Shown here: positions 42,127 to 58,729 of the stretch, one piece after another
Position numbering within the stretch: the first letter of the stretch is position 1
Layout: every line of letters begins with the position of its first letter
Source: Bacteroidaceae bacterium
GTDB taxonomy: Bacteria > Bacteroidota > Bacteroidia > Bacteroidales > Bacteroidaceae
NCBI GenBank assembly: GCA_017547385.1
Contig: JAFYPU010000018.1
Location: forward strand, 1-64,000
Reading direction: 5' to 3'
DNA length: 64,000 nt
The notes under the pieces: generated by a model
Databases searched by the model: none
Told to the model about the DNA's origin: nothing
What the model saw: only the letters and a program-made list of their open reading frames with translations
Position numbers and translations under genes: made by a program

Positions 42127-45100
42127 TCAGCGCATCACTTTCTTTCCGTTCACGATGTAAACTCCCTTGCCGGCATAACGAACGCGACGACCGGTCAGAT
42201 CGTAAATGCAATTGTCTGCGCTCTGCTCTATCATCACGTCGTGAATTTCGGTGGTGCCGTCAGCATCGACAAAACGCATCCGAAGCGCCTTGGCATTGGT
42301 AGGCACATTCAAATAGGCTTTATTGTTGTAAACCTTAAAGCCGGCTACTTTTCTGTAGAAGCCTGCCACACCATCCATCACCGTGAGCACATAGTTGGTG
42401 GAGCCATCTGTGGGTAGTGCCACCTCGGCATAGGCTTCCGTTCCGGCATAGCCACGCAGCAGATTATCAGTAATCACGCTGCCCGAATTAGTTGCGAAGA
42501 ATGTGTAGGTATTTTCCTTTCCCTTGATCACAACACCGGTTTGCGCCGGAATAACTTCTTCGAGTTGCGTCAGGGTGATGGTGCCAATGGCATTCCCTTC
42601 CGGATCTTTCCCATCCATGGTAGGAAGCGTAGTGGCCACGTATGCCTTCACTCCTTCCGGGATTTCAACAGGTCGGTTGGCATAGAAAGTTCCGATTTCG
42701 TAAGCTCCGATGCTACTGATAATGGTTTCAGGCTCGTCAGTACCGCCTGTAACAATAAAGCTTTTGTTGTCATTAGGGTCAAGAGCGGTCAGCGTAAATG
42801 CCGCTCCGCCCACTTCCTCAATCTTGATAACACCGCCATTCATTCGGCGTACGGCTGTGGTGAAATCAACATCAACCTGACCCACATTCACATTGGGCAA
42901 GGTAATGGTGCAACTACCGTCCAGAGCTTTCACATCCTCCGCCAGCACATAGGTGAAAGTTTTGCCATAGTCGCTTGACATGCTGATGCGCAAACGGCTA
43001 TCCTTTGTGAAATAATTTTCATTGACTCCCCACTGAACTGTTACCTCTTCACCTGCCGTGTACTCTGTCTCGGCCGGTTGAAGTGAGGCAGTGAAGGCTT
43101 CACCTGAAACGATCTCCACATTGCTCTCCCAAATGGCATAAGTGCTATAGAAAGGCGCAGCAGTCAACGTCGCATAGTTCCAAGCCACGTTAGGCACATC
43201 ATTAACGAGGATGCTGAGGGGATAAGTACCGGGCTCCATTTTATGAATGTTCGTTCCTTCTTTCAGATAGAAGTTGTCGTCATAAAACAAATCTGCTGTG
43301 TATATAGGTGCGTAGCTGATGATGTTGCTCCGCTGCGGAGCGAATGAAGCAAAGGGTAGTGTCATGTTCACGCCCTCTTGCACATTGTCCACATTCTTGC
43401 TGTTGCAACCGATGGCGGTGTACATCAATTGATGTTTCTCAATGTCAGTAGCCTGCACATCAATCGCGAGGCACGCACCTTGGGGGATGCGATAGGTTGT
43501 CTTCATCTGCTCTGCATCAAAGCGGGGCGCATTGTTTGCCACCGTCACGTTGCGATAAGAGGCCGTGCCCTTCGCACTATTGCGAATTGCCTTGATAGAT
43601 GGGTATGAGAAGAATTCACCGAGGTTGTCCATCAAACTACCCTCGCCCTGAAGCGTGTGAACGGCGCCAAACATGTGGCCGAGTTCGTGTGCCACCACCC
43701 ATTTGTCGGTCTTGGCATAGCCGCTTCCTTTGGTGTTGCTACTGTATGCCCCCTTCAGCGCAGAGAGGCCTGAGTTTTCTGCATAGTCATCGCGGTGCGT
43801 TACCCACATGGCCACATCGTAGTTTGCTTCGCCAATAATATTATTAAGGTTGTAAGTGCAGTTGCCTATCTCAGGGAGACCATTGTAAGCGTTTACCGGC
43901 AAATCCACGACATTGGACAGACGTTCATCCATCACCACATCAAAACAGAAGCCGAGGGGTACGAACATTTTGTTCACAAAGTCCTCACACTCCTGCCAGA
44001 ACGCAAGCACTCTGTCATAGCTGCCGCCAAGGTCGGTGTCGAAAGCGCTCTTTGTTACAGGAATGGCCAGGCGATAGAAACGCAGCGTTCCGTCGCCGGG
44101 AAGCGCATCGGCACTCGTTACCTCCTCCCCTCCTTCTGATGCTTCGGGGGTTGTGTAGTTGTTATTGGTTATCGCTTCAATCGTAAGCGGAGTATATACC
44201 ATACAATAACCCTTTGCTTGGTCGTCGCCATAACATGGTGCTTCCTCAAAGAAGAAGGCAATCTTGCCATCATCTTGCAAAGTCATTGCGCTATAGGCAC
44301 TCTGCTGGGTGCTCACTTGAATGCCTTGTGTCCAATTGCCTGCAATCTGTGCTGACGTGTAATTGTCATTCGTAATTTCTTTGTACCAAATGGTTACATC
44401 GCGGCGGTCGTAGAGTCCACCACCGCCCTTAGGTTGCGATTGCAGGAGCAATTTTACGGGATCGCCATTGGCATTTACAGCATCCACCAGGTAGGGTTCT
44501 CCGTTACAAGTGTTGCTACCGCCATTGCCACAACCGTTCACATTGCTATCCCAAGAGCCTGCGTTAGTGCCTTTGTCTGTATATGTAAATACGTTGAATT
44601 GACGACCACCACCGCGGCGTACGCTGAGCAGAATCTGTCCGCTGGGGAGTATTTCCACCTTAGGTTCATCCTGATTGGCTATGGGATCTTGACTGCCGCC
44701 AAGGATGTTCCAGGTTTCACCGAGGTCATCTGTGTAAATCACGTAGTTGCCTGTGCCCGACGCTTTCTTCAGCAATAATGCGCCATAGATACGCGCCTTG
44801 CCTGTGCCGTTATAGTTTTCGTCCACTGCCAAACGGCCGCTACCAAAGAACGATGTGTAACCATTCTTGATGGTAGCATCGTCGCCGAGGAAGAGGGTTT
44901 CAGAGATGTCCTGCTTGGTCCATGTTACACCATTGTCTTCACTGAACACACGCACAGCACGGTTGTGCGCTGTAGCGCTGCCGTTACCAAACATCACGTC
45001 GCCGGCAGCTGCCATGACCAATACTTTTTGGCCAACAACTGCAATCGCAGCATCACCGTATGCACAATCATCGGTGCCACGCTTACAAGAACCGGCAGCA

Positions 45101-48100
45101 ATTGTTTGCTTTGCACTCCACGTTTTACCATTGTCATCACTTGTTCGGATAACAAGATCAATACCGGGATTGGCTGTTCCAAAGTTATAGCGTCCGATGT
45201 CATCAAGGCTGTGGCGATAATCGCTCACGGCAATGAGGCGACCCGTTGAGGTCTTGCCGATGGCTGGAATGCGGTAAGAAAATTCGTCATCGTCATAGAA
45301 GAGCGTTACATCGGCAGTAGGAGTAAATTTAGCAACCAAAGGATTTCCTTCTGTGATAAGTGCTTTTTGCTCATCAGTGAGCGTAACACTCTTGCCTAAA
45401 TCTTGGCCATTCAAGAAGAAGCCCTGAAACTCGAAACCGCGGTAAGCACGGGTGAATTCAATAACACTAGTGGGTGTGTCAAGGTATCCGATTGTTACTA
45501 CATCCGCATCTCTCATCAACTGAACGGTATTGGTTCCAAACTTACTTGTGGTTCTTATCATACCGAAGTGCGTGTTGGGATTGTTTATATCCAATCCATC
45601 CACCTCAGCCTTTACTCGCAATTGCAATTGTTCTGCTTCAGATTCTTCAACAAGCTCTGCAATAGCTTGCAACTCTGCAGTAGTCAATTCACCCACAAGC
45701 ATCACTTGGTGATTACTGCCTTCGTCATTAAGAGTATTCCAACCTCCAGTCCATGTAATAAGACCTTCACCATGATCGGGGCTATGGTTTACGACACCCG
45801 CATTGTCGGTAGAGAACATAATGGGATAGTCGTTAGAACTGCTCTGCTTAAAGGTAAGCAGTTTGTTGTTAGGCGCATCAACGAAAGGCACTGAAGCATT
45901 ATTGCCACTCTGCACACCCATATACTTACGCTTACCTATATTATAAAGGTAGTAGTTGCCTTTGGCCGACTTATACACCGTCCACTGGAAGTAGGTGTTC
46001 GCAGCTGAGGCTGCAGGATTCACCGTAGTTCTTGCGGTAGAAATCACATTGTTGCTGCTTGCCGTAGCACCCATCCAACCGCGCTTTGTTACGAAAGTAT
46101 AGATACCACCATTCTTAAACTCTTCGGCACTCTTGATGGCCACAGGTTCAAAACTTTGGTCATAAAGGTCAGCAGGGATGAACACGAAGTCGGTACAATA
46201 AGCCGTAGTCTTCTGATCATAAGTTACGGAAGACTGGTCAAAGGCACCGTCTGCATTCTTCACCACAAAATAGTTGCTTCCCTGTGTGTGCAGCGTTACA
46301 CCCATGTGATGCGTGGTGGCAGCGACGGTAAAGTTATGTTCATTATCACTCAGTCCCTTGTGAGCAAGGTACTTTGCTTCTTTATTCTTGAAATTATACT
46401 TACCATCTTCTTTCACGGCAGGCGTCCAAAGGAAAGCAGCCGCCCCACGTTGCAATTCTGTGGTGGGGGTGAGCGTACCATTGTTGTTATAAAGGTAGCG
46501 ATTCAAAAAATTGCTATCCTTATAAGTATCTACATAAAGATAAGAGGCAACCCCAACGACAGGCGATCCTTCTGTGAGTCCCTTATTCCATGCATACACC
46601 TTGTTCAGTTCGGCTGCAGTCTCCAAAGTGGCATTGGCACGATAGGCACGCACGGCATCAAAGGTCTCGTTCACCTTGGTGTAATCGGCGGGCAGGATGT
46701 AGAACTCCGAGAACGTGTAGAACACAGTGCTGTTGTTCGTTGTGTTCACCGTGAAGCGGTAGTGCTGATATGCAGTAGCACTCGCGATGGTTTCAGAATA
46801 ATAGTCAAGCACAGCCGCATCCGTGGGGAAACCGCTACCAATCACCTTCACCTCTGTCCAAGTAGTCTTATCGTTTGAACCTTCAATGGTGATTTGGGTA
46901 GGGCGGTTATTGTTGTTCTGACTGCGCTTCTTGAAGTAGAATCGGAAGTTCTTCACAGCCTTGCCCAAGTCAACTTGCAGATAATGGCTACCGGTACCAA
47001 GCGTATTACCATAGCCGCTATGGAAGAAAGTCTCATATTTACCATCAATGAGATTGGCGTAAGCATTGCCACTCTCCTGATCTGTAGAGGCAGGGTAATT
47101 ACAAACAAACTGACCATCACCCTTGATGCCCGTACCGGCATTCTGCACCAAGCCAAGGTGGCGCTGCAGCCCATGGATGTTCATGCCGTTGTTGGCTGCC
47201 ACCGCATCGCTGAGGATGAGGTCTTCCGCATTGACGGGATACTCCAACTCGGCAATTTTCTCTGTGCTGAGTGCTTCGCCGAAGAACTGCACCGAACGAA
47301 TTTGTCCGCCAAACTTATCATACGCAGCGTTAGTGCTCACCACACCACCACCGATGTAAAGCTTTGCATTGGCATTATCGAGAAAGTTGCTGAACGACTG
47401 CAATTCGTAACCGCTCACGGGATAGGTTGCCGAACTCTTCAACGCACCGTCCACATAGACGGAAAACTGCTTGTTGGCGCGATCAATCACATACACCACC
47501 TTGTAGTTGGTGCTCCCTGTAAAAGCAAAGTCTCTGTAAGTAAATCTGTCGCCATCGGATGAAGAGGGTAAATAAACGGGGTTACTGCCGTAAAGTCCGA
47601 AACCCACATAGGGAGAGTTTGTCTTAGTGGCACCGGTAACTCCTTTCGTAGGGTCGGCCGCACACACCAATGCTTGGCGGCCACTCATGGAAGCCGGCAT
47701 AGTTACATCCAAAGCAATGGTGATGTTCTCCTTGGAAAACACTTTCTGTGCCAAAGCTGCGTCTACGGCATAGGGATAGGTCTGACTACCCAAGCCTTCC
47801 AACTTGACGATGGGTTGAGGCGGAATTTGGTCGGTAACATCAATGAAACGATATTCGCAGCCATCGTCTGTGGTGTTGGTGCCATCTCCCCAGTTAAGAA
47901 GGTGCAGATTACCATCTTTTTGCTGGTTGAATTGGGCTGAACCGCTTACAACAATCACATTCCCGGTGTTCTCAGCTTTCTTGATGCTCCAACCGGCAGC
48001 GGGCTGTGCTGCCACAGTTTTCAGTGCTGCGTTGTTGTTGCTGGCGGGTGAGATATAAGTACCATCGGCAAGGTTGATGATGTCGTATGCATTGTCGCTG

Positions 48101-50601
48101 CGCTTCACAAACTGCCAGACGGAAGCCTTGGTCGTTGCTTCCGTAGGACCTGTGATAGCTGCATCAACACCATTACCTGTAGCATAGCGATTGGCACGGA
48201 GCGGCGTGTACATGCGGTAGTAATTGCCACTCACGGGGCGGTTCATCGCCTCTTCGGTGAGCGAAGCCGCGAAGGCTTGCCACGCCGTTTCGAGCGCAGC
48301 CACCTGTGCTTCACGCTCCGCCTGAGTCATGTCGGTGTCGGCATAGGTAGCCTCGATTTCTTTCACCTTGGCATCAAGCGTGGCAGCCGCACTTTCGGGC
48401 CAGAGACCTACGGCCGTGCCGATGTAAGCACCACGGTCGCGCTTGATTTCGCTCACTTTGGCAGCTACCACCTCGGTGGCCTCGTCCATGCATTGGTTGG
48501 GCGAGTACACCAAGTTTTCAACGGCATTCACACCCTCCACATCAGTGAACACGCAGGTGAACATCCACTTCTTCAAACGATAACCCTTGTTCATGTAAGG
48601 GAGCTTGAGGAACACCTTGTTCCAACCCTGCTTCAGGGTAACCTTGATGGGAGCACGGCCGGGGAAGTTCTCGTTCTTCAGTTCCACTTCCTTGCTGCTG
48701 ACGCTCACACCGGTGTTGTCCCATGTGGGAGCCGCAATCTCCTCACCGTTAATCCATATTTTAGAACCGAAGTGGTCCCACTTACCTGCGGGAGCAGCAC
48801 CGTCTTGTTCCGAGCGGCTGTAATTCTGAAACTCAATCTGTGCACCTACGGTCTGTTCTTGGGGAGAATAAACGTATGTCCACGCATAGGCAGTGTGGTT
48901 GAACTGAGGATTGCTGTAGTAGGCATTGATGATGGAGTTGCCCCAGGTGTGAGCCAGGTAGATGCCCGCACCAGTTGCCATTCCTGTGTAATAGGTCTTG
49001 CCTTCGTGGGTATATACTTCGGGAAGAAGGTCTGTCGATGCCGTAGTGCCGGCTTCTTCAGGCCCGAAGACCGCCGTTTCGCTGCCTCCGTTGGGGAAAG
49101 CATCCGTGATGCGCCAACGCACATTGGTTTGCTTCACATAGGGAATGGGCTCGGCTTTCAAGGAGTTTGCCTTGTGGAAGAGGAAGCGCGTTTCCCAACT
49201 CTTAAACTCTTCGTATTCGTCACCCGAGTTGGGGAGCATCACGCCGCCGCCATAAGGATTGGCCTTGTAGGCAGCCGGGGTGTTGGTGGCATTGTCGATG
49301 TACTGTTTGCCACCACCTGCCCAGGCACGCTCGGCCGTGGCGATGACATTTGCCCACACATTGTTCTGCGCCATGATGTCTCTCTCCGTAGCCACTTTGC
49401 GGTCGTTCCAACAACCTGAGATAGCGCCAGCAACTTCTGTGCTACCCTGCTGAGAATAGTAGATGGTACTCTTGTAGATACCCACGAGGTCGGCAAAGAC
49501 GTCGAAGTGGTTGGTGTAATTATAACGGCAATCAATGTTGGCCTTGCCCGAAGCCAAGTATCCGCGTGTGCCCCACATTTGTGCCAAAGTGTGGTTCAGT
49601 GCATCCTGACTGATGCCGTTGATGGGATTCCAGAGTCCTCCTTTCACGTTGGCACCTTTGCTTTCGACATAGGCAATCATTTCGTTGAGGTAGTCGGCCG
49701 TGGTGCTCACTTCGTCGCCACCGATGTGAATGTAGGGAGCATCGGCAAAGACTTCCACCACCTCGTCAAGAATCTTTTTGAGCGCAGCCTTACCGTCTGC
49801 AGTCTGCATGCCAAAACCCATGGCACGTTCAAAGGCTTCGCTATGACCGGGCATGTCGATTTCGGGAATGACAACCATACCGTGCTTCTTCGCCACCTGC
49901 ATCAAGCGCTTGCAATCTTCCTGCGTGTAATACTGTCCGGGGAAGCGTGTCATGCTTGCCGCAGCGGTGAGCTGAGGATACGCCTTCACCTCAAAACGCC
50001 ATGCCTGGTTCTCCGTCAGGTGCCAGTGGAAAGTGTTCACCTTGAAGCGCGAAAAGAGTTCGACTTGCTTCACCAGCTCGTCAATGGAGATGAACGAGCG
50101 ACCCACGTCGTGCATGTAACCACGCAGCTTGAATGCAGGCCAGTCCTTCATGGTAAGTGCTTCGAGGGCAGGAGTGCCTTCCCACCCTTCGGCCAACTGC
50201 GTGAGCGTTTGCGCTGCACGAATCACACCCGTGTTGGTTACGGCCGTGATATTGATTTCGCTGCCGGTAATCTCCAGCGTGTAAGCCTCGTTTTCATAAC
50301 CATGAAGCGCGTAATCATGCGCACCGTCAATGCTTTTCACCAGGCTCACGTTGACAGCCTTGCCACCGGCAGGCACAAGCGCACAACCGGCATTGGTGAA
50401 GACCTCTTCCAACAACTCACACCGGGCAGCCCCGTCGGCATAAGCCACCGTCACGTTGCCCGAGAGCATGAACGGAGCAGCATTTTCTGTTACCGCAACG
50501 CTCTGCGGCTTGGGGAGCAGATGCACCAGCTTGGCTTGTGCCGAGAGGGAAAACCCTAAGCACAAGCACAGCATCATCTTCAACAAGAAGTTTGTTCTCA
50601 T
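42127..50601 (-). CDS. Secreted multi-enzyme: GH20 hexosaminidase + GH33 sialidase + metzincin protease
   Basis: A single 2824-codon frame. Signal peptide (1-23, LGFSLSAQA); GH20 N-terminal and catalytic domains (about 24-480) with HIGGDEV, catalytic pair D296-E297; beta-trefoil-like segment (about 770-930); LamG-like lectin domain (about 940-1140); F5/8 discoidin/CBM32-like domain (about 1150-1290); further trefoil-like parts (to about 1640); GH33 sialidase (about 1765-2145) with YRIP (R1777) and Asp boxes SDDNGKTW, SEDNGVTW, TDDLGETW; metzincin (about 2150-2345) with HELGHMFGAVH (H2305, H2309, H2315) and Met-turn SLMD (M2324); Ig/cadherin-like parts; C-terminal tail with YDLTGRRV and GVYIVNGKKV, resembling a type IX secretion sorting signal. 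It could strip sialic acid and N-acetylhexosamine from mucin-type glycans and cut the exposed protein. All three catalytic motifs look intact. Promoter from the repeat at 50656. Confidence 0.88.
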   Translation of the reverse strand: MRTNFLLKMMLCLCLGFSLSAQAKLVHLLPKPQSVAVTENAAPFMLSGNVTVAYADGAARCELLEEVFTNAGCALVPAGGKAVNVSLVKSIDGAHDYALHGYENEAYTLEITGSEINITAVTNTGVIRAAQTLTQLAEGWEGTPALEALTMKDWPAFKLRGYMHDVGRSFISIDELVKQVELFSRFKVNTFHWHLTENQAWRFEVKAYPQLTAAASMTRFPGQYYTQEDCKRLMQVAKKHGMVVIPEIDMPGHSEAFERAMGFGMQTADGKAALKKILDEVVEVFADAPYIHIGGDEVSTTADYLNEMIAYVESKGANVKGGLWNPINGISQDALNHTLAQMWGTRGYLASGKANIDCRYNYTNHFDVFADLVGIYKSTIYYSQQGSTEVAGAISGCWNDRKVATERDIMAQNNVWANVIATAERAWAGGGKQYIDNATNTPAAYKANPYGGGVMLPNSGDEYEEFKSWETRFLFHKANSLKAEPIPYVKQTNVRWRITDAFPNGGSETAVFGPEEAGTTASTDLLPEVYTHEGKTYYTGMATGAGIYLAHTWGNSIINAYYSNPQFNHTAYAWTYVYSPQEQTVGAQIEFQNYSRSEQDGAAPAGKWDHFGSKIWINGEEIAAPTWDNTGVSVSSKEVELKNENFPGRAPIKVTLKQGWNKVFLKLPYMNKGYRLKKWMFTCVFTDVEGVNAVENLVYSPNQCMDEATEVVAAKVSEIKRDRGAYIGTAVGLWPESAAATLDAKVKEIEATYADTDMTQAEREAQVAALETAWQAFAASLTEEAMNRPVSGNYYRMYTPLRANRYATGNGVDAAITGPTEATTKASVWQFVKRSDNAYDIINLADGTYISPASNNNAALKTVAAQPAAGWSIKKAENTGNVIVVSGSAQFNQQKDGNLHLLNWGDGTNTTDDGCEYRFIDVTDQIPPQPIVKLEGLGSQTYPYAVDAALAQKVFSKENITIALDVTMPASMSGRQALVCAADPTKGVTGATKTNSPYVGFGLYGSNPVYLPSSSDGDRFTYRDFAFTGSTNYKVVYVIDRANKQFSVYVDGALKSSATYPVSGYELQSFSNFLDNANAKLYIGGGVVSTNAAYDKFGGQIRSVQFFGEALSTEKIAELEYPVNAEDLILSDAVAANNGMNIHGLQRHLGLVQNAGTGIKGDGQFVCNYPASTDQESGNAYANLIDGKYETFFHSGYGNTLGTGSHYLQVDLGKAVKNFRFYFKKRSQNNNNRPTQITIEGSNDKTTWTEVKVIGSGFPTDAAVLDYYSETIASATAYQHYRFTVNTTNNSTVFYTFSEFYILPADYTKVNETFDAVRAYRANATLETAAELNKVYAWNKGLTEGSPVVGVASYLYVDTYKDSNFLNRYLYNNNGTLTPTTELQRGAAAFLWTPAVKEDGKYNFKNKEAKYLAHKGLSDNEHNFTVAATTHHMGVTLHTQGSNYFVVKNADGAFDQSSVTYDQKTTAYCTDFVFIPADLYDQSFEPVAIKSAEEFKNGGIYTFVTKRGWMGATASSNNVISTARTTVNPAASAANTYFQWTVYKSAKGNYYLYNIGKRKYMGVQSGNNASVPFVDAPNNKLLTFKQSSSNDYPIMFSTDNAGVVNHSPDHGEGLITWTGGWNTLNDEGSNHQVMLVGELTTAELQAIAELVEESEAEQLQLRVKAEVDGLDINNPNTHFGMIRTTSKFGTNTVQLMRDADVVTIGYLDTPTSVIEFTRAYRGFEFQGFFLNGQDLGKSVTLTDEQKALITEGNPLVAKFTPTADVTLFYDDDEFSYRIPAIGKTSTGRLIAVSDYRHSLDDIGRYNFGTANPGIDLVIRTSDDNGKTWSAKQTIAAGSCKRGTDDCAYGDAAIAVVGQKVLVMAAAGDVMFGNGSATAHNRAVRVFSEDNGVTWTKQDISETLFLGDDATIKNGYTSFFGSGRLAVDENYNGTGKARIYGALLLKKASGTGNYVIYTDDLGETWNILGGSQDPIANQDEPKVEILPSGQILLSVRRGGGRQFNVFTYTDKGTNAGSWDSNVNGCGNGGSNTCNGEPYLVDAVNANGDPVKLLLQSQPKGGGGLYDRRDVTIWYKEITNDNYTSAQIAGNWTQGIQVSTQQSAYSAMTLQDDGKIAFFFEEAPCYGDDQAKGYCMVYTPLTIEAITNNNYTTPEASEGGEEVTSADALPGDGTLRFYRLAIPVTKSAFDTDLGGSYDRVLAFWQECEDFVNKMFVPLGFCFDVVMDERLSNVVDLPVNAYNGLPEIGNCTYNLNNIIGEANYDVAMWVTHRDDYAENSGLSALKGAYSSNTKGSGYAKTDKWVVAHELGHMFGAVHTLQGEGSLMDNLGEFFSYPSIKAIRNSAKGTASYRNVTVANNAPRFDAEQMKTTYRIPQGACLAIDVQATDIEKHQLMYTAIGCNSKNVDNVQEGVNMTLPFASFAPQRSNIISYAPIYTADLFYDDNFYLKEGTNIHKMEPGTYPLSILVNDVPNVAWNYATLTAAPFYSTYAIWESNVEIVSGEAFTASLQPAETEYTAGEEVTVQWGVNENYFTKDSRLRISMSSDYGKTFTYVLAEDVKALDGSCTITLPNVNVGQVDVDFTTAVRRMNGGVIKIEEVGGAAFTLTALDPNDNKSFIVTGGTDEPETIISSIGAYEIGTFYANRPVEIPEGVKAYVATTLPTMDGKDPEGNAIGTITLTQLEEVIPAQTGVVIKGKENTYTFFATNSGSVITDNLLRGYAGTEAYAEVALPTDGSTNYVLTVMDGVAGFYRKVAGFKVYNNKAYLNVPTNAKALRMRFVDADGTTEIHDVMIEQSADNCIYDLTGRRVRYAGKGVYIVNGKKVMR

Positions 50602-51272: not shown

Positions 51273-54200
51273 TTATTTTACAATAAACTTCTTGCCACCG
51301 CGGATGTAAACACCGCCCTTGTTCAACTGGCTCACACGACGACCGCTGAGGTCGTAAACGGGCAGATGAGCATCGGATGCATTTTCTTCCACACCGGAGA
51401 TGCGAGTAACTTCTCCACCGAAATCAAGTGCATAGGCTTTCACTTGGCTGCCGGCACCCAAAACGATGTAAGCCTTGTTCTTACCGGCAACAGTGCCCAC
51501 TGTGCCTTGATAGAAGGCAATACCCTTGGTGAAGTATTCGCCATCGATTTTCACTCTGTTGCCCAACACATAGTCGCCCAATTCCAGAACGTGGGTGGTG
51601 CCGGCAGTGTGGCAGAACAGGTTGCCATCGATGGTGGCATCGGCTGCAATCTCAGTGCCGTCGGTCTTGGCGGGAATCATCGGAGCAGAAGCAATACCTG
51701 CTTCTCCCACAAGGATCACTCCTTGGTTGGCAGGGATGGCATCACCTTCCATCACGGCGAGAGTAGCACCGTTGGCAGTCTTGGAGGCAGCGTAATAGGC
51801 TGTTACACCTTCGGGGACGAGGGTGGCAAAAGGAGCACTGAAAGTGCCAATGCCCTTGCCCACACCGATGTTGTGCAGACACACGTCAGTGTCCTTAATG
51901 GTGTTCAGCTTCACATTGTTGGGGTAAGACACTTCCTGGAAAGCGAAGACAGAACTTGCGTTGGCCTCACAAACCAACTTAACATTGCTATGCTTATCTC
52001 TGTTGCCGTTGTGCAAGTTCAATTGACCATTCTCATCAACGCACATGGTCACCCAACCATCGTAGGCCTTACCTTGAGAGAGACCGGCGATGGCCAAAGT
52101 TCCCAAACGCACATCGGGTGTAGCATGGAGATAGAGATCGTTTTCTGCAGAGCTCAAGCAGTTGTAGTAGCTAGAAAAACCTGTTGCATTTCCACCATCG
52201 GCTGCAAAAGGTTCACCAACCTGACCTGTGGCTTCGAAATCTATCGGAGAATAATACAATGCGTACTTACCATTCTTCGCATTGACAAAAGCATAGAGTT
52301 TGTTTTCTGCATCAATCACACGACAAACAAACTTCTCGGCATCGTCATCGGTGGCAGACTTCTGCGCCACGGTGAGCACACCGCTTTGTTCGTCATATTT
52401 CAGCACGTTGAAGCTGGGGCTGAAGTTGTTCTCATCAGTGGTAAGCACACTATATATAATATATGTACCGCCATCGGCAGGCATCTGCACATCGGTAGTC
52501 GTGATGTAAGCTTCGTAAGCATCGCTCAGTCTCTCATAGTCTTCAGTTGAAGCATTGCCGGCATTGACAACCTCCAAAACTTCAGTCAATTCATTACGCA
52601 CCTCAGAGTCTTCTTCAGGATAGCCCACACCGGTGAGAGCCAAAACTTTGGGAGCAGCGTGCATAAGGAACGGTGCTTCGTTTTCGGCACAAGCCTCATA
52701 CTGCCCGTTTGTCAAATCCTCGATGCTGTAGGGGATGTAAACCATGCAGTAGCCACCGGGCTCTTCCTCGAAGAAGAAGCCGATGCGGCCATCGGCCTGC
52801 ATAATCATGGTGGAATAAGCCGATTCCTTGGTGCTTACATGCTTACCCACTTGCCAACCTTCGGCAAAAGCAGCAGGAGTGTAAGGAGTGGAATAGTTCA
52901 TTTCCTTATAGTAAACCTTAACATTGCTGCGATTGGGACCTGCAGGAATGGATTGCAACATAACGTCGCAAACTTTGCCATCAGACTTGCGAACAGCTTT
53001 CACCTTGTAGATTTCACCGTTCGTACCGTTGCCACTACCATCATAAGCAGATGTACTCTTTACTGCAGACCCCCAACTACCTGTTGTGTATTTTTCAGCA
53101 TCTGACTTACCCTCATTGTTAAATGTAAAGATATTGAACCAACGTCCACCAGAAACGCGGCTACTGAGAACCACAGTACCATCTGCCAATTCTTCCACCT
53201 TGGGTTCGTCGCCACCGGAAGCAGGACGATCACTGATGGTGCCAAGCACATTCCATGACATACCGAAGTCGTCAGAATAAATCACGCGATTACCCTCATC
53301 GCGAGTCCACAGAGCACAATAGAGACGATAGTATTCGTTCTTCTTCACCACACGGCTCTGGCAAATCTTACCCGAACCAATAAACATAGAAGTTACGGTG
53401 GGAGTTTCACCGTCCAAGAAGATGGAGTATATGGCATCCGTTACTTCCTCGGGCTGTGTCCAGTCCCAAGTTTTTGTTTCTTCGTTGTAATTGGCATACA
53501 CACGAGCCACACGGTTTACGGCTGTGGCATCCTTCACACCAATCTTAGATTTTTCCCAACGTCCGTTCCAACATGTTGTGCGACCACTTACCATCATCAC
53601 AAGAAGCTTGTTTTGGTCGCGGTCAGCCACAATGGCGGGGTCGCCATAACCGGTTTCCATAACATTGGTGTTGCCACCTTTACCATCAGCCACTGTAAAC
53701 TCAGCCCCCCAATTCACACCATTGTCAGTTGAAATTCGGCATACAATATCCACGTCTCCATTTCCGATATCACCACCACAAGGACGGTAGTCGCAAATGG
53801 CAAAGATATCTCCGTTGGGAGCTGTTGCAATGGCAGGAATACGATAGGGGTGATTTTCTCTGGGAGTGTAATAGAGTGTACGTTCCTCAGTGGCATTGTA
53901 ATAAGCACTCAACTCCACACCCCCCACGGGGATAGTGAAGTTTTCAGGATTGTCAACACCCCAAATGCCCCAGAGTTCGTAACCGCGATAAGTCATGCTG
54001 CTGAGTGAAAGCGTGGCACCCTTGGGCAGATAATAAGTGGTAGCTTCCACATTGCCCTCGATGCGTGTCTGCGCTGTGCTTCCATCAATGCTGAATGTGA
54101 GTTCGGCCACGCGAGGACTGCTTTCCAACACTTGGTCCACATAAACGCCCATTGAGAGCGTATTCTTAACGTCGATAAGGTCAAAATTCCAGTGAGAGCC

Positions 54201-56570
54201 ACCGTCATTGGCACCATAGAACTTGATGTTTGCACCCAAAGAGTTTGTACCGCCATAAGAGTTCAAGCTCCAATCGTTGTTGCCAACAGGGGCAATGGCA
54301 TAGCCGCCATCTTTCTCGATGAGGTGCCAAGATTGTGCATCAGCAGCAGCCACCATCTTCACTTCAGTGCCGTCGCCAATGGAAGCAGCCGAAGGAGTCA
54401 GCGCCAAGGCTTCGCCGCTCACGTAGTTGTAAATCTTGAAGTTGTCGGCAGTGCCCACAAAGCTCCAAAGCATGCCGGTGTTGGTGTAGTCCTTCTTGTT
54501 GAAAGTGGGTTTGGCATCAGCAACGTTGCTGCCCAAGAACATGGCATGGCCGGCATCGGTTTTGCGAACAATGTTAATCCACTTGTCGCCCACATTTTGA
54601 GAGAAGAAAGCAGGAACAAACTTAACTACAAGAGAAACGTCTCCATCAAGGTCCTCGATATTAACGGTGGTTCCCTTGTCGGTTTCTCCCTCAAAGATGC
54701 CCGAAACTTCGTAAGCAGCCTCTGTGTTTATGGTCAATGTGGGATTCTCGATGGCTAAGTCGCCCAGGATGACCCAAGTGGCCGGCAGAGGTTTTGTTTC
54801 ATTGTTCCAAGTGGCAGTGGCTTTCACCTTAGCATCACCTGTAACAGTAAGTTGTTTAGAAATCACTTCTACAGCCACAAAGTTGTGCTGAGCACATCCA
54901 TCACCACCACAATGGTCAACGAAATAATTACCATTGGAATCGTTTGCGTGCAAATAAGAAGTGGCTTGAATCTTGATCTGACCCAACGCTGCACCGGCCG
55001 TGAAAGTAACATTGTTACCCTCGTCGTGCAAACCTCGGTGGTTGCCATCTTCCTTCAGATACTTACCGGTTGAAATAGACTTCAAACGAAGGTTTCCATC
55101 AATCTCTTCAACGAGGAAGATTGAGCCTTCACCTTGTCCGGCGGCCATCTCAAGTCCTTTCACAGAAGAGTTGGTGGACTGCAAATAGAGCACACCGGTT
55201 TCGTTGCCGTAATTATAACCAAAACGATACATCTTGCCCGCTTCGGGAAGGTTCACGCTGTATGACTCCGTGATAGCAGTAATCGCTTCAACCGTTTCAC
55301 ACGCTTCGATAGCAGCATTTACGTCATCGAGTGTGTAGAGCTTTGTGCCGTTGGCAGTATATGAATAGTAACCAATTGCCTTGCTCAACGTACTTTCATT
55401 CGCTGCAACAGCAGCCTTTGCAGTAGTCTTTGCTTCGGCAAGTGCATCAATTGGTTCTTCTGTTACATCATATTCTGACAAAAGGAAAGTTGAACCGGCA
55501 TCGTTAGCTCCCCAATGTGCAACCTTGCCATTTTGAGCATTGAGATATTTTCCGCCGGGATATTGCAAACAGAAGTACTGAGCACCTGGAACTCCACTGG
55601 CCGCAGGCTTAAAAGCTGTGCCATCAGCAGCCATGCCGGGATTGCCATCACCGGTTGACTTCACAGCCACTGAACTTCCGGCTGCTCTATTATAGAGTTT
55701 GAAGCCATTAACAGGGTCTCCCACGAAAGCCCATGCGTAAGCTTTCTTTGAACCGCTTTCAGGGAGCGAAGCGTCTGCCCACTCAAGGTAATTACCACCT
55801 GCAATGTACTCAATGTATCTTTTATTATTGGAGTGCATCTGCATGTAGTACCACTTTGTGATATTGGCATAGCTGTCGGCATATTCAAAAGGAAGACTAA
55901 CAGTGCAAGCCACATCATAGGTCTTGCCATTGTCTGCCTCGGTTACTTCTCCCACAGGAGCATTTGCAGAAAAACCATAAGGAAGCATGGCCGGAGCAGG
56001 GAATGCTTGATCTATGGTTGCTACAACGTCTTCCGTGCCAAACGAATTACCATTCCAAATATAGTTATAAGTAACTGTTACTGTCTCCAGCTTTTGAATG
56101 TAAACCTTGAACTCGGTAAGAGTAACTTTGTTGTTACCTGCAAGGGTGAAATCAGCAGCCTGTGTTGCCAAGCCGGTCTTCTCAATAGTCTGAACTTCTG
56201 CAGTTACATTATGAACATCCCCATCAATGGTAATGGTTTTATTATCTGCAGCACCGGAATACTTGAATGAATAACCGGTGATTTGATAGGGAAGAGACAC
56301 CTGAAGTCTGTAAGGACTGCTTAGGGCAGTACCCGAATAGAGATGCATCTCAGCTCCACTGCCTTGCATATTGCCGGCACTGTTCGTTGTAATTAACTTC
56401 AACGCTGCCGGGTTTGCGTCAGAAGTGGTGTAAGCCCACTCAGAAGCCCAGTTTTTGTTGAATGTACCAGTGTTGGCACTGACGACATATTCCGTCTGCG
56501 CCCACACCACATTGCACACCAACCCTAACAATAGGCTTAGCATGCACCTTAGTAAGTTTGTTTTACACAT
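51273..56570 (-). CDS. Secreted GH33 exo-alpha-sialidase, multidomain
   Basis: A 1765-residue secreted protein. Signal peptide 1-24 (LLGLVCNVVWA, cut before QTEY). Residues about 25-900 hold beta-sandwich and trefoil-like modules (for example WYYMQMHSNNKRYIEY and MYRFGYNYGNETGVLYLQS), probable glycan-binding parts. GH33 catalytic domain about 900-1290: HPYRIPA (R910), the acid-region ICDYRPCGGD, Asp boxes STDNGVNW and SDDFGMSW, and GGYCMVY. A C-terminal module (about 1308-1765) ends with YDLSGRRV and GGVYIRGGKK, a type IX-like tail. That module is homologous to the whole 447-residue protein at 57169. It would release terminal sialic acid from host glycans. A poly-G tract sits at its promoter's -33 position. 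Followed at 17 bp by a microprotein gene. Confidence 0.9.
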   Translation of the reverse strand: MCKTNLLRCMLSLLLGLVCNVVWAQTEYVVSANTGTFNKNWASEWAYTTSDANPAALKLITTNSAGNMQGSGAEMHLYSGTALSSPYRLQVSLPYQITGYSFKYSGAADNKTITIDGDVHNVTAEVQTIEKTGLATQAADFTLAGNNKVTLTEFKVYIQKLETVTVTYNYIWNGNSFGTEDVVATIDQAFPAPAMLPYGFSANAPVGEVTEADNGKTYDVACTVSLPFEYADSYANITKWYYMQMHSNNKRYIEYIAGGNYLEWADASLPESGSKKAYAWAFVGDPVNGFKLYNRAAGSSVAVKSTGDGNPGMAADGTAFKPAASGVPGAQYFCLQYPGGKYLNAQNGKVAHWGANDAGSTFLLSEYDVTEEPIDALAEAKTTAKAAVAANESTLSKAIGYYSYTANGTKLYTLDDVNAAIEACETVEAITAITESYSVNLPEAGKMYRFGYNYGNETGVLYLQSTNSSVKGLEMAAGQGEGSIFLVEEIDGNLRLKSISTGKYLKEDGNHRGLHDEGNNVTFTAGAALGQIKIQATSYLHANDSNGNYFVDHCGGDGCAQHNFVAVEVISKQLTVTGDAKVKATATWNNETKPLPATWVILGDLAIENPTLTINTEAAYEVSGIFEGETDKGTTVNIEDLDGDVSLVVKFVPAFFSQNVGDKWINIVRKTDAGHAMFLGSNVADAKPTFNKKDYTNTGMLWSFVGTADNFKIYNYVSGEALALTPSAASIGDGTEVKMVAAADAQSWHLIEKDGGYAIAPVGNNDWSLNSYGGTNSLGANIKFYGANDGGSHWNFDLIDVKNTLSMGVYVDQVLESSPRVAELTFSIDGSTAQTRIEGNVEATTYYLPKGATLSLSSMTYRGYELWGIWGVDNPENFTIPVGGVELSAYYNATEERTLYYTPRENHPYRIPAIATAPNGDIFAICDYRPCGGDIGNGDVDIVCRISTDNGVNWGAEFTVADGKGGNTNVMETGYGDPAIVADRDQNKLLVMMVSGRTTCWNGRWEKSKIGVKDATAVNRVARVYANYNEETKTWDWTQPEEVTDAIYSIFLDGETPTVTSMFIGSGKICQSRVVKKNEYYRLYCALWTRDEGNRVIYSDDFGMSWNVLGTISDRPASGGDEPKVEELADGTVVLSSRVSGGRWFNIFTFNNEGKSDAEKYTTGSWGSAVKSTSAYDGSGNGTNGEIYKVKAVRKSDGKVCDVMLQSIPAGPNRSNVKVYYKEMNYSTPYTPAAFAEGWQVGKHVSTKESAYSTMIMQADGRIGFFFEEEPGGYCMVYIPYSIEDLTNGQYEACAENEAPFLMHAAPKVLALTGVGYPEEDSEVRNELTEVLEVVNAGNASTEDYERLSDAYEAYITTTDVQMPADGGTYIIYSVLTTDENNFSPSFNVLKYDEQSGVLTVAQKSATDDDAEKFVCRVIDAENKLYAFVNAKNGKYALYYSPIDFEATGQVGEPFAADGGNATGFSSYYNCLSSAENDLYLHATPDVRLGTLAIAGLSQGKAYDGWVTMCVDENGQLNLHNGNRDKHSNVKLVCEANASSVFAFQEVSYPNNVKLNTIKDTDVCLHNIGVGKGIGTFSAPFATLVPEGVTAYYAASKTANGATLAVMEGDAIPANQGVILVGEAGIASAPMIPAKTDGTEIAADATIDGNLFCHTAGTTHVLELGDYVLGNRVKIDGEYFTKGIAFYQGTVGTVAGKNKAYIVLGAGSQVKAYALDFGGEVTRISGVEENASDAHLPVYDLSGRRVSQLNKGGVYIRGGKKFIVK

Positions 56571-57168: not shown

Positions 57169-58512
57169 TCATTTCACAATATATTTTCGACCGGCCGAGA
57201 TGTAAACGCCTCCCTTTTGAAGCTGCAACACACAGCGACCACTGAGGTCATAAACGGGAGCATTCATCACGGGAGTGGCAAGGAGGCTGCCCTCTATGCC
57301 TGTGGCACCACCGCTGCCAAGACGCAGCGAGAGAATCGAAAGAGCCTGACCGGGAACCCAATAGGCTTTGTTGGCACCTATCACTCGGTCATTGTCATCC
57401 AGACGATAGAACATGATTTCGCTCCCCACATCTTTCTGAAAGGCGAGGATGTAAGCATTCACGTTATCATCGATGCGTGTGGCTGCAAGTGTGCCCTTCA
57501 AGCCTGTTGGCATAGGCTCGGTGTCTTGAGAGGCTGCAGGATAAAACTTATAGATACCGGGAGCATCGCCTTGCAGCAGCACGGGCGTTTCGGCCGGCAG
57601 TATGTTGCCGGAAGTGATGCCACGCACTTGCTCCAACCAATGGTCGTTCTCCGCACTGAGTTCCAAAGCGTAGGCTGTAACGCCCTCGGGCACAACTGAA
57701 GCAAAGGGGAGATGGAGCGTGCCAAAGTCGCCCAAACTGCCATCATTGACCTTTGCAGGGAAATACCAGTCTGAGGCTTCCTCAAAGATGAAGTCGCTCG
57801 TTTCAAGTTCATTCACATTGACATACTCTTCATTGGCATTGCGCGTATAGAAGTTGAGTTTGAACACGCCGTCTTGTTTGAGCGCAACGTAGGTGCGCAT
57901 CTTCAGTTTGGCACTTTCGAGATAAGGAGCCGTGATGCGCAACGTTCCGAAATTCACGCCTTTCTGAAATTTGAGCGTGGCCACTGTGGTGGTATTGAAG
58001 CCTGCTCCCTGCGTGAACCAGGCATCTGAAACGCAGGACACAAGTCGATAGAGATCGTCCTCCACATCGGCAAGAGTGAGAGCAGGTGTGGCCGCTGTGC
58101 GCTGTGCGATGAAGCAACCATTGTTGTCCTCCACCGGTGCTTCACTGCACTTGCCATGAATGCCATCACGATAGACATAACAAAGCGTTCCGTCAATCAT
58201 GCGAGCTGCCAAACGATAGACTTTCCCGTCTTCGGGCAACTGCACATGAGGCGATGCTTCATAAACCGCCAGGGCTGCGGCAATGGATTGCGTCTCGTCC
58301 TCGGAGAATGTTCCGTCAGCTTCAGACGTTCGGATGGCATCAGCCAATGCAACACGCTCTTCTGCATCAGCTTTGGGATAACCCACACCGATGAGTGCCA
58401 ACTTGCTTTTGGCATCGTCCACAACGGGGGGAATGGTTTGTGCCCACGACACAGCACACATCCCGCAAAAGAATAAACCCAGTATGTACCTTAGTAAGTC
58501 TGTTTTCCTCAT
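57169..58512 (-). CDS. Secreted sialidase C-terminal-module protein lacking the catalytic domain
   Basis: A 447-residue secreted protein. Its signal peptide (MRKTDLLRYILGLFFCGMC, cut after VSWA) closely resembles that of the 1765-residue sialidase (MCKTNLLRCMLSLLLGLVC...). The mature part starts almost at once with LALIGVGYPKADAEE, matching LALTGVGYPEEDSEV at about residue 1308 of the sialidase, and continues in parallel to the tail YDLSGRCV and GGVYISAGRKY. So it is that C-terminal module alone, with the sialidase and all N-terminal modules missing. It probably binds glycan or serves on the cell surface; no enzymatic motif is seen. ATG 58512 is chosen because of the signal peptide; the frame upstream crosses the promoter. 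Confidence 0.82.
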   Translation of the reverse strand: MRKTDLLRYILGLFFCGMCAVSWAQTIPPVVDDAKSKLALIGVGYPKADAEERVALADAIRTSEADGTFSEDETQSIAAALAVYEASPHVQLPEDGKVYRLAARMIDGTLCYVYRDGIHGKCSEAPVEDNNGCFIAQRTAATPALTLADVEDDLYRLVSCVSDAWFTQGAGFNTTTVATLKFQKGVNFGTLRITAPYLESAKLKMRTYVALKQDGVFKLNFYTRNANEEYVNVNELETSDFIFEEASDWYFPAKVNDGSLGDFGTLHLPFASVVPEGVTAYALELSAENDHWLEQVRGITSGNILPAETPVLLQGDAPGIYKFYPAASQDTEPMPTGLKGTLAATRIDDNVNAYILAFQKDVGSEIMFYRLDDNDRVIGANKAYWVPGQALSILSLRLGSGGATGIEGSLLATPVMNAPVYDLSGRCVLQLQKGGVYISAGRKYIVK

Positions 58513-58577
58513 AAACACCTTTGTTTGCATCACTTCCCTTGATTGCAAGGGATAGATGCATATTCTTTCCAAGGTTG

Positions 58578-58585
58578 CAAAACTA
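58578..58585 (-). promoter_or_regulatory. Predicted -7 box of the catalytic-less paralogue
   Basis: CAAAACTA reads TAGTTTTG on the minus strand. The surrounding 50 bp (CCAAGGTTGCAAAACTAAGT, then AGTTTGGTAATCAGGG) resemble the promoter of the 1765-residue sialidase, showing that the promoter was duplicated with the gene. Confidence 0.55.
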
Positions 58586-58729
58586 AGTGAAAGTTTGGTA
58601 ATCAGGGAAAAAGAAGCACCTCTTTTTCCGCTTAAACACATGATTTAACATTTTCAGCACCCACCGGCAGATGGAGCTTGGCAAAACCAAGCCCCTCAAG
58701 CACTCCCAAAGAGTTGAGCCTCCCCCACC

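Follow-up and report, generated by a model that had tools for sequence, protein, structure and literature searches.

The window analysed here is a stretch of 64,000 nucleotides from a metagenome-assembled genome (MAG) of a Bacteroidaceae bacterium (assembly GCA_017547385.1, contig JAFYPU010000018.1, positions 1 to 64,000). On its minus strand lies a gene for a protein of 2824 amino acids (aa), in which a glycoside hydrolase family 20 (GH20) domain, a GH33 sialidase domain and a metzincin zinc protease domain stand in a single chain. A preliminary description made from the sequence had reported the uninterrupted 2824-codon frame without giving a strand, and the frame is present in the open reading frame (ORF) list. 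We found that the three domains keep their active-site residues, that the architecture recurs in other proteins, hereafter called triple proteins, and that the protease is reused as a cassette in other chains. The coordinates of all features are given in Table 1.

Three catalytic domains in one chain

The Pfam search listed 13 families on the protein, 11 of them above the cut-off and two, BNR (the Asp-box model) and GH43_C, below it. The scores included 132 bits for Glyco_hydro_20, 69 for Reprolysin_4, 54 for Glyco_hydro_20b, 48 for F5_F8_type_C, 37 for BNR_2 and 28 for RicinB_lectin_2. Residue conservation is given below for 40 triple proteins, which comprise the window protein and 39 other clusters; one of them, P0023, was left out of the module hidden Markov models (HMMs).

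The GH20 site had been placed at D296-E297, and the pair was found there within the sequence HIGGDE. Both residues are invariant in 40/40 triple proteins, the preceding G295 being Ala in 8 of the 40, and we take a D-E pair in the HxGGDE context to be the catalytic pair of GH20. The protein is like the bacterial GH20 beta-hexosaminidases (3gh7 from Paenibacillus and 6q63, BT0459) in sequence and model matches and in this pair, whereas it differs from them in matching the Pfam profile in part only (132.4 bits against a cut-off of 22.3, covering 1-111 and then 147-180). A forced-global profile-profile alignment spans the domain, with many gaps across the last hundred residues. The region was aligned by hhalign to six other GH20s from the same genome with an E value of 1.8e-80, and its structure model, which is of low confidence, matched 3gh7 in Foldseek at 1.8e-22.

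The GH33 motifs were likewise found as described, YRIP at 1776 and three Asp boxes at 1821, 1887 and 1957. The assignment is clearer from NF052328 and 10qf than from Pfam. The neuraminidase model NF052328 was the sole NCBI model matched, at 237 bits against an equivalog cut-off of 900, so that the window protein is related to, and not a member of, this TDE0471-type neuraminidase equivalog. The best match among solved structures was the exo-alpha-sialidase 10qf (E 4.1e-58), a chain of 531 aa. Residues R1777, R1995, R2066, E1979, Y2103, D1800 and D1801 align with 10qf and are invariant in 40/40 triple proteins; an Arg triad, a Glu-Tyr pair, an Asp acid and Asp boxes are hallmarks of the family.

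The zinc site HELGHMFGAVH (2305-2315) and the Met-turn SLMD (at 2322), both pointed out previously, are kept in 40/40 triple proteins, and a degenerate protease in this family was dismissed on the intact zinc site. Since no solved structure was matched significantly when searched by sequence with the metzincin (best E 0.59), a predicted fold was needed for the assignment. The predicted structure of the region has an adamalysin fold and matched 2w12 and 1r55 at 13-19% identity; the lower rows of one fold search include unrelated chains of low TM-score (complement C4, A2ML1 and cadherin). The domain has the zinc motif, the Met-turn and the predicted fold in common with adamalysin/reprolysin-like metzincins (PF13583, M12B-like; 2w12, 1r55), and it differs from these in that no propeptide is seen, in having a beta-rich region of its own and in being fused to glycosidases. 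The three enzyme assignments of the preliminary description were upheld by profiles and residue conservation and, for the protease, by the predicted fold, which also disposes of its proviso that the third region might not be a metallopeptidase. We infer that all three sites are active.

Among the accessory modules foreseen, the discoidin-like one (PF00754) and the trefoil-like one (PF14200) were found in the protein itself, whereas PF13385 (LamG) was not listed by Pfam for the window protein and the LamG-like module was seen only through precomputed matches on some homologues. RB3, one of two conserved modules named by us, was not found in 9/40 triple proteins, and its profile matches the beta-trefoil region 801-926 weakly (12.9 bits). 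As to the expected secretion tail, it has 17 matching places in its own genome, including itself and both neighbours, and the two components of the type IX machinery that were searched are encoded there, SprA in full length (2733 bits) and GldN (227 bits), whereas curated sorting-domain models were not matched. The presence of SprA and GldN makes type IX secretion of the 2824-aa chain plausible. The GldN gene (C5:76345-77172) shares its contig with the triple gene and lies about 12 kb past the window end.

Recurrence of the architecture and exchange of its modules

The chain is not a one-off. By module HMMs, all three catalytic modules were found in 39 other clusters of the protein collection, with lengths of 2626-2835 aa; in the homologue search with the window protein about 8000 candidates were scored and the best 120 of 350 hits were listed. 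Of 58 same-genus genomes, at least 3 have full-length colinear genes (G000, G018 and G008, the window's own included) and, among the matches listed, 0 of 43 genomes outside the genus do; with three candidates scored per genome, these counts are lower bounds. Full-length genes are also carried by three MAGs of ruminant origin: L039 (rectum of dairy cattle), L040 (colon of roe deer) and L045 (rectum of water buffalo; its gene is without RB3). Judging from the like scores of their frames, L039 and L040 are probably the same as G018 and G008. The genome scan gave 13 loci, and all of them (13/13) belong to MAGs named 'Bacteroidaceae bacterium' from ruminant cecum, colon or rectum. The metzincin region was matched at E <= 1e-3 in 11/37 same-genus genomes and in 1/24 others (weakly, E 9e-4), and, in a sample of 295 genomes from the order, at E <= 1e-20 in one, which is the window's own.

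These data bear on the concern, raised in the preliminary description, that the frame might be an assembly join. The window MAG is 86.5% complete, a point in favour of an assembly or binning artefact; against it stand the full-length genes in the three host-derived MAGs and the 39 further clusters. We regard the frame as real because colinear genes occur in separate assemblies, and the artefact was rejected as extremely improbable.

Pairwise identities were compared across 39 triple proteins (741 pairs; P0023 excluded). Identity in GH20 is correlated with identity in the region beside it (Spearman 0.71), whereas the catalytic modules are barely correlated with one another (GH20-GH33 0.19, GH20-metzincin 0.20, GH33-metzincin 0.18), and the metzincin and the tail are weakly correlated (0.32). 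For example, in GH20, GH33 and the metzincin region P0012 and P0013 are 56%, 96% and 94% identical, and the corresponding values for P0018 and P0037 are 92%, 67% and 91%. This pattern indicates that modules are exchanged while the triple architecture is retained.

The protease cassette in other chains

Several observations bear on the boundaries of the protease. In the GH20-GH33 chains P0043, P0045 and P0050 the sialidase is joined directly to a related tail without a protease, and P0041 and P0053 end in a short tail. The metzincin also occurs as a standalone protein (P0149, P0152, P0156, P0164, P0166, P0168, P0176, P0181 and P0238, from a search in which about 8000 candidates were scored and the best 120 of 326 hits listed). 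In these nine the domain begins 16-48 residues after the first Met, which leaves no space for a large propeptide, and in most of them a leader-like stretch, judged by eye, precedes it. Several share a DALPGDG-type start, which in the fusion is found after the sialidase linker. The protease looks like a self-contained cassette of about 460 aa sitting between sialidase and tail.

A protein-collection search in which all hits were listed (about 8000 best candidates scored) gave 74 clusters of long proteins with the cassette. By module HMM, 39 of the 74 combine GH20, GH33 and metzincin, and 13 lack GH20 but carry GH33 with the metzincin; 12 of these 13 also have Peptidase_C10, the exception being the partial P0257. 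The remaining 22 are without GH20 and GH33, and comprise 3 with GH95, 7 with Peptidase_C10 and 12 without another listed catalytic family. In the C10 chains with a sialidase the metzincin precedes it (12/12, by HMM), and both chains that were put through Pfam have C10 as their first domain (P0101, with domains at 172-368, 735-883 and 1908-2093; P0100 alike). This different domain order suggests that the C10, metzincin and GH33 combination was likely assembled separately from the triple chain. In a protease tree of 161 rows, which left out partial chains and any span shorter than 380 or longer than 600 residues, the ten C10-chain proteases form one group on one side of a branch with a support of 100, and the triple chains are not one clade, at least 11 label changes being forced. 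Fusion events were not counted from this tree, because some of the 'solo' rows may be contig-end fragments. Metzincin dN/dS was near 0.1 where defined and was set aside, dS being saturated or undefined in many cells.

By motif counting, 33 of 192 metzincin-bearing proteins (P0194 to P0254, e.g. P0200, P0241 and P0250) have HExxHxxGxxxH, as in HELGHMFGADFHT. Eight of the 33 were inspected directly, and these belong to a group of metzincins with InlB repeats. One residue is inserted before the third histidine and the zinc motif is not lost, so we dropped the reading of these proteins as pseudoproteases.

GH95 is an alpha-fucosidase family. L050 is a GH95 chain whose metzincin (2416-2567) directly follows the GH95 domains (1651-2385), and the 2820-aa chain P0245 unites GH95 and metzincin with a transglutaminase-like domain. 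The L050, L047 and L045 chains share a large N-terminal domain (about aa 480-1200 of L050), for which Pfam and PDB searches with L050 gave nothing above thresholds except Ig-like modules; by eye only, it was likened to a clan GH-D glycosidase. P0128 and P0174 are short chains in which a GH20 gene start runs into a sialidase or metzincin end, either by natural in-frame deletion or by an assembly join.

Proposed function and genomic surroundings

Our preferred reading, to which we give a probability of roughly 60%, is that the product is a single secreted chain whose hexosaminidase and sialidase would strip the cap sugars of host mucin-type glycoproteins and whose adamalysin-like metalloprotease would then cut the shielded peptide. 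The chain would be exported to the surface by its tail through type IX secretion, and the lectin-like modules may hold it on the glycoprotein substrate. Sialic acid and beta-linked N-acetylhexosamine caps would be taken off first, and the metzincin would then cleave the peptide that they had covered. A broader proposal, for which we see about even odds, is that one ruminant-hindgut Bacteroidaceae genus shuffles the cassette onto GH20 plus GH33, GH95, and C10 plus GH33, giving a class of giant, self-contained surface enzymes that decap and cut glycoproteins, with glycosidase and protease both acting on the same mucin strand.

It is possible, with clearly lower probability, that the domains share a chain only for joint secretion and surface holding, each with its own substrate and in no order of action. 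The GH20-GH33 chains without a protease, the standalone protease, the near absence of correlation between module identities and the presence of the tail on many further large proteins encoded in the genome would all fit such a chain; the persistence of the triple architecture despite module exchange would not, nor would the cassette partners GH20, GH33, GH95 and C10, families generally expected to act on glycoproteins, with the proviso that 12 of the 74 long chains have none listed. That the metzincin is a processing protease, cutting its own chain or neighbours and freeing the glycosidases from the cell surface, seems unlikely to us. In triple chains and GH95 chains it adjoins the C-terminal tail, where a cut would free everything N-terminal, but it lies ahead of the sialidase in the C10 chains and also occurs on its own, in proteins that start with a leader-like stretch. 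More doubtful still is a main target other than mucin, such as secretory IgA or a serum-type glycoprotein, on which sialidases, hexosaminidases and proteases are in general able to act. Mucin or immunoglobulins had both been suggested beforehand; the mucin part fits the genome, whose kit of M60-like peptidase, GH89, MucBP and esterase-sialidase proteins is mucin-directed in appearance, whereas nothing favours immunoglobulins over mucin and no IgA-directed feature turned up, no search having been aimed at such features.

Several points weigh against the preferred reading. The enzyme activities are predictions, and the specificity of GH20 and GH33 (e.g. GlcNAc versus GalNAc) is not readable from these data. 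The GH20 domain is matched by Pfam over part of the profile, its model is poor (pLDDT 60.2, with residues 340-471 below 50), so that a complete (beta/alpha)8 barrel is putative, and G295 is Ala in one fifth of the triple proteins. P0023 (1/40) differs at its N-terminus, with H164, G167, W193, H194 and T196 gapped and H253 and S254 changed. The tail has no Pfam (PF18962) or NCBIfam secretion-tail match at E 0.1, and no propeptide that might keep the protease inactive is seen ahead of the metzincin. Moreover, the genome counts are limited by incomplete MAGs, and the mosaic pattern could stem in part from chimeric metagenome assembly.

In the usual picture of mucin breakdown many separate enzymes work in turn, sugars before backbone. 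Here a single chain encodes both the removal of sugars and the cutting of the backbone, and does so in more than one combination. Each domain family is known, as are multi-enzyme sugar-degrading chains, and the cassette family is the most novel part of the finding. The excerpted account of SiaBb3 from Bifidobacterium bifidum describes one secreted chain with beta-N-acetylgalactosaminidase and alpha-sialidase acting on mucin O-glycans (Sda antigen), in which the sialidase has to act ahead of the other enzyme, a useful pairing of two sugar activities on mucin (PMC12856340). According to the same excerpt, its hexosaminidase is GH123 in a 1753-aa chain with a sortase anchor and no protease domain is described (PMC12856340), whereas the window chain has GH20 and a metzincin; GH123 is not among the Pfam listings of the window protein. 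Akkermansia O-glycopeptidases such as OgpA, compared by description only, are likewise proteases cutting O-glycosylated mucin, and the partial descriptions mention no glycosidase in the same chain, unlike the fused protease of the window. A glycosidase-metzincin chain was not found in the titles and abstract starts of the open-access PMC papers that literature searches on this question listed, subscription papers and preprints being outside this scope. If the domains cooperate, the chain would illustrate a way for gut bacteria to defeat the glycan shield locally, and it would offer ready-made single-chain tools for glycoproteomics. Cooperation is directly testable, because nature provides chains that have the protease, chains that lack it and chains with swapped modules.

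Table 1. Features of the triple gene and its neighbours in the window
Feature	Coordinates	Strand	Evidence
Whole gene, 2824 aa	42127..50601	-	ORF list; colinear genes elsewhere
Signal-peptide-like N-terminus, aa 1-23	50533..50601	-	by eye from sequence
GH20 N-terminal and catalytic domain, aa 22-450	49252..50538	-	Pfam; hhalign; Foldseek
GH20 catalytic pair D296-E297	49711..49716	-	40/40; aligned with HLGGDE of canonical GH20
Conserved region after GH20, aa 455-700, without Pfam match	48502..49239	-	family conservation
Ricin-type beta-trefoil lectin-like module, aa 828-888	47938..48120	-	Pfam PF14200
LamG-like module, aa 930-1135 (boundaries ours)	47197..47814	-	PF13385 on some homologues
Discoidin-like F5/8 C module, aa 1171-1256	46834..47091	-	Pfam PF00754
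Conserved modules RB2 and RB3 (our names), aa 1300-1665	45607..46704	-	module HMMs
GH33 sialidase, aa 1720-2151	44149..45444	-	Pfam, NCBIfam, 10qf; catalytic residues 40/40
Metzincin catalytic domain, aa 2165-2330	43612..44109	-	Pfam PF13583; predicted fold
Zinc site HELGHMFGAVH, aa 2305-2315	43657..43689	-	H2305, E2306, H2309, G2312, H2315 each 40/40
Met-turn SLMD, aa 2322-2325	43627..43638	-	40/40
Beta-rich metzincin companion region (MPc), aa 2335-2620	42742..43599	-	family comparison; predicted structure
C-terminal tail, aa 2625-2824, putative secretion signal	42130..42729	-	17 matches in own genome; SprA; GldN
Second GH33-type sialidase, 1765 aa, beta-trefoil module, related tail	51273..56570	-	NF052328 249 bits; GH33 motifs by eye
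490-aa gene without Pfam family, related tail	57169..58641	-	tail comparison

One flank of the triple gene is occupied by the second sialidase and the 490-aa gene, and the other by ordinary genes (NUDIX, PYC_OADA carboxylase, enolase). In L040 the triple gene is flanked by a gene homologous to the 490-aa one (57% identity) and by a 2589-aa GH95-plus-GH33 chain (L040:19082-26851), and in L045 a 3643-aa GH95-plus-GH33 chain (L045:944-11875) precedes it; both giant chains are stop-to-stop frames in which GH33, unlisted by Pfam, was matched by its module HMM alone, at 210 and 258 bits. The second window sialidase shares 61% identity over 881 residues with the C-terminal part of the giant chain in L040.

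Among 11 large frames of the window's own genome that were scanned with Pfam, L073 and one of L076 are without any family. The genome has nine GH20 genes (ten profile matches). Its large proteins include a GH20 with MucBP (1361 aa), a GH89 (NAGLU) protein of 1648 aa and an M60-like peptidase of 2327 aa with F5/8 C modules. It also encodes a chain of 2032 aa (L072:685-6780, minus strand, contig C10) that joins a GDSL-like esterase to a BNR sialidase-type domain, a pairing that would suit O-acetylated sialic acids.
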